Below, in pieces: positions 53,397-58,480 of a stretch of 59,004 nt of DNA. Source of the DNA: Blastopirellula marina (GTDB lineage: Bacteria; Planctomycetota; Planctomycetia; Pirellulales; Thermoguttaceae). Position numbers and translations under genes: made by a program. The DNA lies in NCBI GenBank assembly GCA_020721965.1, contig DYLS01000010.1:1-59004 (forward strand), read 5' to 3'. The notes under the pieces are model-generated. The model saw only the letters and a program-made list of their open reading frames with translations. It had not been told where the DNA came from and did not search any database. Positions within the stretch are counted from its first letter, which is position 1; every line of letters starts with the position of its first letter.

Positions 53397-56267
53397 TCAG
53401 AAAAGCGGTTTATCGTCCTCGTCGATTTCGTCGTCATCCTCGTCCGCGTCGAAGGGAAAGTCGCCGTCGGCCGTCCAGTCTTCGTCGTCATCATCCCCTT
53501 CGTCGTGGGATTGCTTGAACAAATCGCCGACTTCCGCTTCGATCGCGCGGTCCAGTTCTCCGGGGACCTCTCGCACCCCTTGCCACACCACTCCCGGACG
53601 ATCACGAAAGCCGATCTCGACTTCCTCGCAGGTCACCAGCGAGGGCGGCAGGGGATAGCAGCGCTGCTGGGCTTGGATGACGTAGTGCTCGGCCTCCTCT
53701 TCGTTTCTCGCCAGAGCGCCCCACGCCGCGTAGTATCGCCGCCAATCCGCCTGACCCGCGAGGCAGGCCGGGTGCCGCGGCCAATCCTCGTCCAGCGGCT
53801 GCTCCACGTCGCACTCGAAATAGATGAGGTCTTCCGTGATTGGCCGATTCGCACGCTCCTCCGAGAAGTACTCTTGAGGGACCATGCCCGCCTGGAACAA
53901 CCGCTCGACGAGCTGACTGGAAAGGGGATCGTCGTCGGGCAAGGTTGTCTTGCAGACACGCCACAGCCGTTGCAGGATCGTCTCGATCCCCTCGGGCGTC
54001 AGGTCTTCCACTGCTGCCAGGGGCCTATCCAAGATGGTTTGCAAGATGTCGCGAAAGGTCTCGCGTTCGCCGTGGGCCGCGTGCCACCATGCCCGCAACG
54101 CTCGCACCGCCAGGTGCTCCTCGCCGTGCCGTTCGGCCGCGGCACGGATCCGCGGGGCGGCCTCCTCCAGACGTTTGCACTCCAAGAGCGCCCAGGCGTA
54201 ATAGTAAGGCAACCAGGGCTGGTCCGCGCCCCATTCCTCGGCCAAGGCGAGGTAGGTAATAGCCTCGGCATAGCGTTCCAGGCGAACGGCCGTCAGCCCC
54301 GCCTCCCAGGCCACGTCCGAATCTCGCGACTGTCCTTCGCGCAGGCACAGGTCCAGCACGAACAAGGCGTCTTCCACGCGATTGGAATTGCGGTACACCT
54401 CGGCCAGGGCCAGGGCGGATGCGGCCTGGGAGCGATCGAGCGCGAAGCTGCGGGCAAAGCACCATTCGGCATCGCCTTGCAGGTCCAGAACGTGAAACAG
54501 CACCCCCGCCCGATAGTAGTGCCGCGGATGATCCGACTTCAAATCCAGCGACTTGCGCATCATGTGTTCCAGGGTCTGCTGATCGGGTAGCTCGGGGTCC
54601 ATGATCCCTTCGCGGACGCTGGAAGGGGTGGCTCCCGTGTCCTGCTGCCCGCCCCCCTCCCCTGGGCTTGTTTCGTCCGACTCCTGGGCCTCCTGCAATT
54701 CGGAGATGATTTGGGCCTGCCGGACCCAGGCGCCGAGTCCCGCCATAGCCGACAGATTGAGCACGTCGGGATGCTCCGGAAAGCGAGCCAGCAACCTCTT
54801 CGCCCAATGCCAAACATCCTTTTCACGCTTCAGGACGGAGGCCATCTGGGCGGCCACGAAGATCAGCCGCGCCCCGTCTTCCGGCAACTCCACGCTCTCC
54901 GGCGGGACGGCCAGCATCTCGTTGAAAATCACCTCCATGTCCTCGGGGCTAGCATCGGTGCCGTTCGGGAGCCGCGCGAACCAGGCGTTGAACCGCGGCC
55001 CCATCGGCGTTTGATCCCAATCCACGGCGGGGATATTGGCCCGTTCGGCGGCCAGTGCCGAGGTCTCTTTCCCCGGAGGCGGGGCGTCCCCTTTGGCCAA
55101 CGGTGGAAGCGGAACGCGATCCGTCCGGGGCGGCCGCAGGTACGCGATGGCACTCGCTGCCACCCTGCCCGACGTCATCGCCTCCAGACGCGAAAAGAAC
55201 AACGCCGCTTCGCCCACCACCACGCGACGGCGGAGGTCTTCCTCCAAGGCGTCGGCCGCCTCGCTTTTGCCCCACAGCCGCAGCGCGGCGATCCGCCGCG
55301 TCCGCGTCTCCAGCCATTGGGGAATGGCCTCCCAACGCGAGAGCCGCCGGTCCCAGTGCTCCAAGATGTCCGCCGCCTCCGCCGTCCGACCGGTGTCCAC
55401 CGCCACCACCGCGTCGAACAGGGCCTTCCGCCAGACCAATTCGGGGTTCTCCTCCTCAGGGGGCAAGAGGGACCAATCCAGCGGCTCGCCCACCTCGGCA
55501 CAGAGAACCTCCAGCTCATCCCCGCGGCCCGCCGCGTGCAGCGCCGTTCCCAGCAGGGCGAAGGCGTCCAGCTTGGCTGCCTGCGGCGTGTGATAGACCT
55601 TGGCCAGCTCCAATGCCCGCCGACTCTGGTCCACCGCCTCCGTCAAGCGCCCCGACAGCAATTGGATGTAGGCATTCATGCGGGCCCCCTCGAAGCGGTG
55701 GTCGCCCTGATCCAAAAGGGGCAGCTTGTTTTCAATGGACCGGGCCACGTGCAGCGCCGTTTGCTCGTCGCCCAGCGTCAAATACACCCAGACCGTGAAA
55801 TCGCGGAAGCACTCCAGGCAGCCCAGCTTCCCCGTCCGACGGCAGACCTCGTTCCCCTCACGCACCACGTCCCGAACCCGCGGCGAACCGTATCCATCGC
55901 GGATCGCCGCGTGCGTCCCCAAGTGATGGTACGCGCAGGTCGATAGCCAAAACACCAGGCCGCGGTATTCCTCCTCGGGAAAGTCGGGCTGAAACTGCCG
56001 GGCGTGGTCCTCGCTCTCCAGCAAGGCAATCATCTCCGCCGCCAATTCCATGCCCAGCTCCGTCTCGAAGGTATCCAACGCCTCATGGCTCACAGCGATG
56101 GTGGCACGGATGTACGGGATCAACCGCCGCTCACGCTTCGCCAGGTTGCGCAGCTCGCGGTACACGCAAAGCGACGAACGCGCCCAGCAGCGATCTTCGA
56201 GCACTTGCCCCCGCTCCCAGAGTTCTTCGATTTGCCGGTCAATGGCATCTCGCGGTTCGGATGGCAT
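53397..56267 (-). CDS. Large tetratricopeptide-repeat protein
   Basis: A 956-aa, almost wholly helical protein. TPR-like helix pairs are seen throughout, best at about 560-720 (YYRAGVLFHVLDLQGDAEWC, ALALAEVYRNSNRVEDALF, YAEAITYLALAEEWGADQPW). No signal peptide or membrane helix. The last 30 residues are extremely acidic (DEGDDDDEDW to DEIDEDDKPLF). AAGGAG in front of the ATG at 56267 fixes the start. It is the next gene downstream of the Hsp90-like gene on the same strand (305 bp apart), and eukaryotic TPR proteins are Hsp90 partners; a similar partnership here is inference. Inverse copies of repeat D lie on both sides of this gene. Confidence 0.75.
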   Translation of the reverse strand: MPSEPRDAIDRQIEELWERGQVLEDRCWARSSLCVYRELRNLAKRERRLIPYIRATIAVSHEALDTFETELGMELAAEMIALLESEDHARQFQPDFPEEEYRGLVFWLSTCAYHHLGTHAAIRDGYGSPRVRDVVREGNEVCRRTGKLGCLECFRDFTVWVYLTLGDEQTALHVARSIENKLPLLDQGDHRFEGARMNAYIQLLSGRLTEAVDQSRRALELAKVYHTPQAAKLDAFALLGTALHAAGRGDELEVLCAEVGEPLDWSLLPPEEENPELVWRKALFDAVVAVDTGRTAEAADILEHWDRRLSRWEAIPQWLETRTRRIAALRLWGKSEAADALEEDLRRRVVVGEAALFFSRLEAMTSGRVAASAIAYLRPPRTDRVPLPPLAKGDAPPPGKETSALAAERANIPAVDWDQTPMGPRFNAWFARLPNGTDASPEDMEVIFNEMLAVPPESVELPEDGARLIFVAAQMASVLKREKDVWHWAKRLLARFPEHPDVLNLSAMAGLGAWVRQAQIISELQEAQESDETSPGEGGGQQDTGATPSSVREGIMDPELPDQQTLEHMMRKSLDLKSDHPRHYYRAGVLFHVLDLQGDAEWCFARSFALDRSQAASALALAEVYRNSNRVEDALFVLDLCLREGQSRDSDVAWEAGLTAVRLERYAEAITYLALAEEWGADQPWLPYYYAWALLECKRLEEAAPRIRAAAERHGEEHLAVRALRAWWHAAHGERETFRDILQTILDRPLAAVEDLTPEGIETILQRLWRVCKTTLPDDDPLSSQLVERLFQAGMVPQEYFSEERANRPITEDLIYFECDVEQPLDEDWPRHPACLAGQADWRRYYAAWGALARNEEEAEHYVIQAQQRCYPLPPSLVTCEEVEIGFRDRPGVVWQGVREVPGELDRAIEAEVGDLFKQSHDEGDDDDEDWTADGDFPFDADEDDDEIDEDDKPLF

Positions 56268-56442
56268 GGCGGATAGCTCCTTCACTTGGGCAACAGGGGG
56301 TTCGTGGCCTGGGCACTCCGGCACTCGGAACGGCTCTCCAGCAGCCCACGCGGCCAGCCGGGTGCGACTCCTCGCAGTCTGTGCAAGTCTCCGATAACGG
56401 CCGACGGGAAAACGTCACGCCGGTCCTCAGGCTTTGTTAAAC

Positions 56443-56508
56443 AAACCACCAAGGGCACGCAGGGGCAGCAAGAAAAATCCTTCGTGAATCTTCGTGTCCT
56501 TCGTGGAT
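56443..56508. repeat. Dispersed repeat family D, copy D3
   Basis: AACCACCAAGGGCACGCAGG, then GGGGCAGCAAGAAA and CCTTCGTGAATCTTCGTGTC, ending CCTTCGTGGAT. It is the inverse of the copy at 53239, and fills most of the 305-bp gap between the Hsp90-like and TPR genes. Confidence 0.8.
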
Positions 56509-56572
56509 AAATCGACATTGGCATTGGGGGCAAACTGGAATGAAAGCGTTGCGTGGGCGGGGTTCGAGTTGC

Positions 56573-58480
56573 TTATTCTTCGCTGGGAGGGGCATCGCGG
56601 CCCCACAAGGCCTCGGCGATCCAAAGCAAGTCCTCTTCCTCGCGGCGGAAGGTGGTGGGATCCGGCACCCAGCCCGCCGTCGCCAAGGCCTTGCCCACCA
56701 ACAGCCGCACCACGCTCGCCAGCGGCGTGCCCGGCGACTGCTCCAGTGCCCGCCCAATCAAACGATGATCCATATTCAGTACCACTTCGTTGGGGCGGGG
56801 CACGTCGCTGGAGAAATGGGCGTCGATCAAGCGTTGGAAGCCCGCCGGTACGTTCCCGCTCTTCTTCAGTTCCTCGAACGTCTTGTACAGCTCCGCCCGC
56901 TCGCTCAGAAACGCCATCACCGGCACCCGCGGCGCAAACCGCCCCACCAGCACGCGGACGCGATCCGATCCCAGGAACTCCTGCCAGTGCTGCGGCGCGT
57001 CGCCCACGTCGCCCATCCCCAAAACGCTGCGTGCGAAGTCGGGGCTGCTGGGGCCGGCGATCCGCGCCTCGATCCGGCTCCCTTCCGATTGCGTGTCCGC
57101 CGCCATCAACGCCAGCAGGGTCTCTTCAAAGCTCCGCAGCGTGTGCACGCAGGGGGCCGCATATTCCAAAAACAGCGCATTCATCCACGACTCCTGGTGC
57201 CGATTGGGATTGTACCACAGGATGTAATCGGCCTCCCCCTCCGCGATCGCACTGGCGCGGCTCCGCGGGAGAATCTCGTCGAAGGTCAGCGGCCCCTGCG
57301 AGGTGCTAAAGCGGTAGCTGCGGCGGAGCAGTTCCCGCAACCGCTCGTGCGCCAACGCCGCCCCCGCCAACAGATAGCGGTGCCAGGCGATCAGCGTCTC
57401 CCAACGCTTGGGGTCCTCCTCGGCCAGCCTCTCGAAGTGCTTGAAAATGGCCTGATCCAGCTCGTCCTGCACCCAGGCAAAACGCGCGTCGCGGACCAGA
57501 TCCTCGCGGCTCACGGTAGGGTTGCAGTCGGGCAGCTCCACCACGCCCCGCAGGAACGACGCCCACTCCGGCAGCAGCCCTTGCAGCCGCTGCGAAATGA
57601 CCATCCGCCGCACGGTGACCGTCACTGTCGGCACGTCGGTAAAACCAGGCGTCCGTTGCGGCGTCGCGTACAACGCCCCGCGGATCGGCAGCGGCTTCTC
57701 CAACCGCAGCGGGATCACCTCCAGCGGCGTCTCCCCAAAGTACGATTCCAGCTCCATCTCCAGGGCGTGGCGATCGGCGGTCGGGGCCAGCCACGAGGCC
57801 GTCGCCACGTTCACTCGCCGCACGCCATCGTTCAGAAAAATCGGCACCGGCAAAAAGTCGGCGTAACGCCGGATCACCGACTCCAGCAGCTCCTCGTCCT
57901 GGGCATAGGCGGCGCACTCCCGCTTCAAATGCAGACGCACCGTCGTGCCGCAGTTTTCCCGCTCCGCCGCGGCCAGCTCGATCTCCGTCCCCGATCCCGC
58001 CTCCCAACGCACCGCCTCCTGCCGGTCCCGATGCCGCGTGAGGACCACGATCCGCTCCGCCAGCAGAAAGCCGCTCAACAGACCCACCCCGAACTGGCCG
58101 ATCAGATTAGCCGCCCCCGGCGCTTCCCCGCCGCCCCGCTTGATCCAGCCGCTCAGCCCCAGGCCCAGCGTCCCCAGGTACGTTTCCGCCTCTTCCGCGG
58201 TCATGCCGATGCCGTCGTCCGCCACCTCCACGATCCCCGCCTCCCTGTCTTGACGCAGGTCGATCCGCCCCTGAAACCTGATCTCCACCGCCCGACGCCG
58301 CATGATCCCGTCGTGCGCATTCTGGATCAGCTCGCGGATGGCGACCTCCGGGCGACTGTACAGCGACTCGCCCATCAATTGGATGATCCCCCCCACATCC
58401 ACCTGGAAGGGGACACGCTTGGACCAGCCGGACGATTCCTGGCGAGAGCCACCGGGGAGCGGTTGTTCGGAATCCATCAT
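56573..58480 (-). CDS. Divergent Hsp90-family ATPase chaperone
   Basis: A 635-aa Hsp90-type protein. The N-terminal GHKL ATPase motifs are complete: REXIQNAHD with Asn54 and Asp57, VADDGIGM (89-93) and IGQFGVG (127-133). The middle domain follows (about 220-480), with NPTVSREDLVRD as in HtpG, but the C-terminal dimerisation part is weakly similar. FQVDVGGIIQLMGESLYS at the start differs from standard HtpG and resembles a separate bacterial HSP90 group found also in actinobacteria (from memory, unchecked). The gene precedes the large TPR gene. Start ATG-ATG at 58480. Confidence 0.85.
   Translation of the reverse strand: MMDSEQPLPGGSRQESSGWSKRVPFQVDVGGIIQLMGESLYSRPEVAIRELIQNAHDGIMRRRAVEIRFQGRIDLRQDREAGIVEVADDGIGMTAEEAETYLGTLGLGLSGWIKRGGGEAPGAANLIGQFGVGLLSGFLLAERIVVLTRHRDRQEAVRWEAGSGTEIELAAAERENCGTTVRLHLKRECAAYAQDEELLESVIRRYADFLPVPIFLNDGVRRVNVATASWLAPTADRHALEMELESYFGETPLEVIPLRLEKPLPIRGALYATPQRTPGFTDVPTVTVTVRRMVISQRLQGLLPEWASFLRGVVELPDCNPTVSREDLVRDARFAWVQDELDQAIFKHFERLAEEDPKRWETLIAWHRYLLAGAALAHERLRELLRRSYRFSTSQGPLTFDEILPRSRASAIAEGEADYILWYNPNRHQESWMNALFLEYAAPCVHTLRSFEETLLALMAADTQSEGSRIEARIAGPSSPDFARSVLGMGDVGDAPQHWQEFLGSDRVRVLVGRFAPRVPVMAFLSERAELYKTFEELKKSGNVPAGFQRLIDAHFSSDVPRPNEVVLNMDHRLIGRALEQSPGTPLASVVRLLVGKALATAGWVPDPTTFRREEEDLLWIAEALWGRDAPPSEE

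Follow-up and report, generated by a model that had tools for sequence, protein, structure and literature searches.

A divergent Hsp90 and a large TPR protein form a recurrent gene pair in Planctomycetota, with similar arrangements beside non-HtpG Hsp90s of other phyla

The gene pair and its locus

A gene encoding a divergent, non-HtpG Hsp90 adjoins a gene encoding a large TPR protein in a planctomycete draft genome (4.95 Mb, 97% complete), and this pairing is not a product of chance, as it recurs within the genus and far beyond it. On the reading that we favour, this Hsp90 is specialised and the TPR protein is its obligate partner, probably serving as co-chaperone or adaptor. We refer to the whole stretch of DNA analysed, 59,004 nucleotides, as the window. 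In agreement with a preliminary description of this DNA, both open reading frames lie on the minus strand, the Hsp90 gene at 56573–58480 (635 amino acids) and the TPR gene at 53397–56267. The TPR frame is open from a GTG at 56324; reading of the sequence places a ribosome-binding-like AAGGAG (56277–56282, minus strand) about 9 nt upstream of the ATG at 56267, from which a protein of 956 amino acids is counted. Upstream of the Hsp90 gene, 524 bp remain before the end of the contig, and the neighbour downstream of the pair is a convergent seryl-tRNA synthetase gene (serS). Because the two genes are separated by about 305 bp (56268–56572), their expression from a single transcript is uncertain in the window. 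Short repeats of the CACGAAGG type were read within this gap, at 56460–56520. A search of the window for the heat-shock CIRCE operator found none.

A full-length Hsp90 distinct from HtpG

The window Hsp90 retains the ATPase residues E50 (the catalytic Glu, in RELIQN), N54, D88, G90 and G92 (DDGIGM), together with the GxFGxG lid (residues 128–133), T179 and the middle-domain arginine R325 (SRED). Pfam matches above cut-off cover the ATPase N-terminal domain and the Hsp90 middle domain (HATPase_c_3 and PF00183), and the combination of GHKL ATPase motifs with the middle-domain Arg places the protein in the Hsp90 superfamily. Its structural model (pLDDT 82) aligns with full-length Hsp90 over residues 19–624 (7kw7, Z 22.4) and with TRAP1 over residues 27–625 (7exp, Z 23.1), through the C-terminal domain, consistent with the N-middle-C three-domain fold of full-length Hsp90s. 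Against the NCBIfam HtpG model (NF003555) the protein scores 214 bits, below the curated cut-off of 371; the best NCBIfam match, PRK14083 'HSP90 family' (NF010683), reaches 280 bits and likewise falls below its curated cut-off, 455. In the phylogeny, a long branch sets HtpG apart from several other clades, and the window-type Hsp90s make up one of the latter, with full support. The residues kept, the HtpG score and the separate position in the tree together uphold the initial reading of a full ATPase site in a protein that is not standard HtpG.

The window protein is the sole Hsp90 found in its genome, and seven other genomes also carry the window type only. General replacement of HtpG by this type was rejected, as a canonical HtpG-like gene is also present in about 18 of 25 related genomes. 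A viral origin was similarly dismissed after a viral scan returned distant Hsp90 relatives alone (23–36% identity). One sequence binned as Pelobacter sp. (contig DIWZ01000031.1) nests in the planctomycete Hsp90 clade, by mis-binning or transfer.

The TPR protein

TPR matches in the window TPR protein (P0002) taken alone are weak (TPR_19, 1e-4) and recur family-wide. The P0002 model (pLDDT 83.7) consists of a superhelix (residues 24–824), an alpha/beta domain (830–915) and a tail modeled at low confidence; family-wide matches and the model together indicate TPR helical pairs in the superhelix. The alpha/beta domain, delimited by alignments and the model at about residues 830–915, corresponds to 53580–53837 on the minus strand, coordinates derived from residue numbers, and has conserved QPLD...W, ARNEEEA and CYP motifs. 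The last 45 residues (53400–53534, minus strand) include 23 D/E and are probably disordered. The earlier portrayal of 956 residues of TPR-like helices with an acidic tail is thus sound. Alignments show the tail at full length only within the genus and absent or short in relatives outside it, so we rejected it as a functional core; on this evidence it is a lineage-specific feature that lies outside the conserved system. In another genome, where window-type Hsp90 was not found, a gene whose match to the TPR protein is confined to the C-terminal portion was seen beside a serine/threonine-kinase-like gene (G034:C63:13920-14957, minus strand).

Structural comparison places residues 21–398 of P0002 closest to MalT domain III (Z 25.9) and the Rap/NprR sensors (Z 18–20). 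Residues 665–800 resemble the TPR domains of STUB1 and SGT (Z about 13), as many TPRs would, and the C-terminal repeats generally resemble many TPRs, co-chaperones among them. Because TPR folds match each other widely, the fold of P0002 does not assign it a function.

Conservation of the pair in Planctomycetota

The Hsp90 and TPR genes are adjacent and co-oriented in three further genomes of the genus and family (G002, G003 and G021). The upstream flank of the G002 pair matches another part of the window (30.6–40.1 kb); the flanks of the two loci thus differ, indicating that the pair was kept as a unit while its surroundings moved. Scanning named genomes with nothing but the Hsp90 sequence yielded 80 loci. 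Leaving aside the G003 and G021 contigs, 11 planctomycete-type loci have a TPR-family gene downstream of the Hsp90 gene and co-oriented with it, and the Hsp90 frame is broken in one of the 11 (L091). At a further locus (L059), the TPR gene is upstream of the Hsp90 gene and divergent from it.

The two genes are unlinked in many planctomycetes. Nonetheless, the TPR gene is present in 18/18 named genomes with a window-type Hsp90, including all 16 in which it was not seen beside the Hsp90 gene. Across 392 Planctomycetota genomes, 9 contain both genes, none the Hsp90 gene only, one the TPR gene only (G084) and 382 neither, a co-occurrence with a Fisher p of 2e-17 that is uncorrected for kinship, these genomes not being independent. 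The nine genomes with both span six genera and five families. Hsp90 distances correlate with partner distances (r 0.91), as they would under shared descent alone.

Partner genes beside non-HtpG Hsp90s of other phyla

Partner-family genes flank the Hsp90 gene in 35 of 41 loci of sister non-HtpG clades, a count that is not fully independent because the partner HMMs were built from such Hsp90 neighbours. Cross-hits between partner families and profile comparisons are independent of this seeding. None of six HtpG controls has a partner-family gene alongside; HtpG, which has the three-domain fold and ATPase residues in common with the window Hsp90, therefore differs from it in gene neighbourhood as well as in bit score and by the long tree branch. 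An upstream-neighbour control by Pfam scan gave few TPR matches, and is rough because of shadow ORFs. Twenty-five of the 35 flanking partners belong to TPR-type families A4–A6, which occur in Pseudomonadota, Myxococcota, Chloroflexota, Abditibacteriota, Actinomycetota and Planctomycetota; the other 10 are of a TPR-like family, A7, and extend the range to Cyanobacteriota, Verrucomicrobiota, Acidobacteriota and Thermodesulfobacteriota. An Hsp90 gene beside a TPR gene is also seen in annotated records of a plasmid collection from Streptomyces, Pseudomonas aeruginosa and Xanthomonas. Conservation of the neighbourhood beyond close relatives had been set beforehand as the test by which the pairing could be refuted, and the association reaches well past them into several phyla.

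Profile comparison indicates that the partner N-domains are homologous (A4–A5, 3e-24; A4–A6, 1e-20; A5–A6, 1e-17). The N-terminal domain of P0002 matches other partner families with p values of 4e-4 and 1.5e-3 (controls 0.02 or worse), which is suggestive of a relationship; the kinship of A7 to the other partner families is uncertain. A Cys motif is common to several partner families. The partner gene is tandemly duplicated beside the Hsp90 gene at five loci (L098, L100, L114, L116 and L040), with three copies in L100.

In the A7 sister clade, the Hsp90 bears a C-terminal extension of ~240 residues (L048 7932–10565, L101 4440–10610, L117 5442–8018 and L120 7992–10592 (+)). The extension has a conserved DANPNVMFELG motif, and the best of its TIR- or deoxyribosyltransferase-like matches scores 23.7 bits against a Pfam cut-off of 24.7; the extended genes adjoin a ~380-aa partner gene in most cases. 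This sister clade is a possible Hsp90-TIR-like defence system.

Docking mode, proposed function and alternatives

Eukaryotic-type docking was considered and rejected. The window Hsp90 terminates in ...ALWGRDAPPSEE; the EEVD tail is absent here and in relatives. A strict pattern scan for the carboxylate clamp (K..N/N/K..R over three TPRs), in which Hop TPR1 matched as positive control and which could miss a clamp of unusual spacing, found it in no partner sequence. The conserved C-terminal DWIAEALWG was also discarded as a docking peptide, since it forms the last predicted helix of the Hsp90 C-domain and as such may serve dimerisation only. Of the TPR partnership originally envisaged, the notion of a dedicated partner is strengthened by adjacency, co-occurrence and the arrangement in other phyla, whereas its eukaryotic mode of binding is not supported, EEVD and clamp being missing.

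In the model we propose, the Hsp90, with one domain each for nucleotide binding and dimerisation and a middle domain, would act as an ATP-driven clamp. Its TPR partner, a predicted long superhelix, would most likely bind the Hsp90 and, as co-chaperone or adaptor, recruit or hold client proteins whose identity we can only infer; which protein acts on which, and their physiological role, are likewise matters of conjecture. That the products of both genes form a single chaperone machine, with the TPR protein as a dedicated partner engaged by a means other than the EEVD-carboxylate clamp, is a proposition to which we give about even weight. Its extension to ancient non-HtpG Hsp90s of about ten phyla, with obligate clade-specific TPR-type co-chaperones, docking free of the EEVD clamp and one TIR-like effector branch, is put forward more tentatively, as a credible possibility somewhat short of an even chance.

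The main rival explanation would reverse these roles: the Hsp90 would be the private chaperone, or the ATP-driven switch, of a TPR protein that is itself the client or sensor. By analogy with MalT, Rap and NprR, to which residues 21–398 are most similar, the N-terminal superhelix may be the site at which a ligand or a peptide binds. The partners are moreover large and divergent, with extra C-terminal domains, tandem duplicates at some loci and a shared Cys motif, all of which suit a client or sensor; P0002, however, has no recognised fused effector or DNA-binding domain, and we regard this role as rather unlikely. Less probable still is a role in defence or signalling, with Hsp90 and repeat protein detecting infection or stress. 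The patchy distribution of the window type would fit such a role, as would the extended Hsp90s of the A7 sister clade, whose extensions weakly match CAP12/Pycsar TIR or nucleoside deoxyribosyltransferase folds. These matches, however, are all below Pfam cut-off and a PDB profile search gave just E 0.3, while the window pair lacks a TIR-like extension and has serS for a neighbour. PADLOC assigned no defence family to the window pair: the TPR protein had no match of any kind, and the Hsp90 produced weak cross-hits (REase_II, TmtA) through the shared ATPase fold. A role with large client or defence proteins, as raised in the preliminary description, is conjectural.

Neighbouring genes often persist by descent, and the frequency of unlinked pairs in planctomycetes could be taken to mean two independent housekeeping genes with shared ancestry and a shared location in a few of these bacteria. 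Retention of both genes in genomes where they are unlinked, the near-perfect phyletic match and the similar layouts, with divergent partners, that recur in other phyla argue against this explanation, which is largely refuted, the single TPR-only genome notwithstanding, and which we consider highly improbable. A chaperone machine with a dedicated TPR partner is the reading that the evidence favours.

Relation to known systems

Members of PRK14083, known from Streptomyces and others, are like the window Hsp90 full-length and non-HtpG, and that of Streptomyces globosus immediately adjoins a 1033-aa TPR gene, as in the window; the window protein nonetheless falls short of the family cut-off and in a separate clade. 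Pseudomonas aeruginosa encodes an Hsp90-like ATP-binding protein followed by a 764-aa TPR protein (WP_003082113/WP_003082116), the latter a family A4 partner at most distantly related to P0002. We take this pair to be PA1068/PA1069, with which the neighbouring branched-chain transport genes agree. Our literature search found no characterization of either protein. The one experimental trace of a partner that the search recovered is the enrichment of PA1069 in a BatR co-immunoprecipitation (PMC13411936). In eukaryotes, Hop, CHIP and FKBP52 are likewise TPR proteins paired with Hsp90; the window pair differs from them in lacking EEVD, clamp residues and a common sequence family, and P0002 is far larger.

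Published work recognises no obligate Hsp90 co-chaperones in bacteria (PMC3708813) or for Escherichia coli HtpG (PMC4428384), and a large study of bacterial Hsp90 co-evolution dealt with hsp90A alone, setting other paralogues aside. Within the open-licence literature, we found no paper describing an Hsp90-TPR pair or an obligate bacterial Hsp90 co-chaperone.

Conclusions

Relative to the preliminary description, conservation of the Hsp90-TPR pair is stronger and the eukaryotic analogy weaker. The pair raises the question of whether an Hsp90-TPR partnership that uses a different docking mode arose outside eukaryotes. As a gene pair that crosses phyla, it is a concrete and testable candidate for a bacterial Hsp90 partner, and some carriers are cultured bacteria in which it can be tested. 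If the wider reading, of ancient non-HtpG Hsp90s with obligate TPR-type co-chaperones, is true, bacteria would have their first known family of dedicated Hsp90 co-chaperones.
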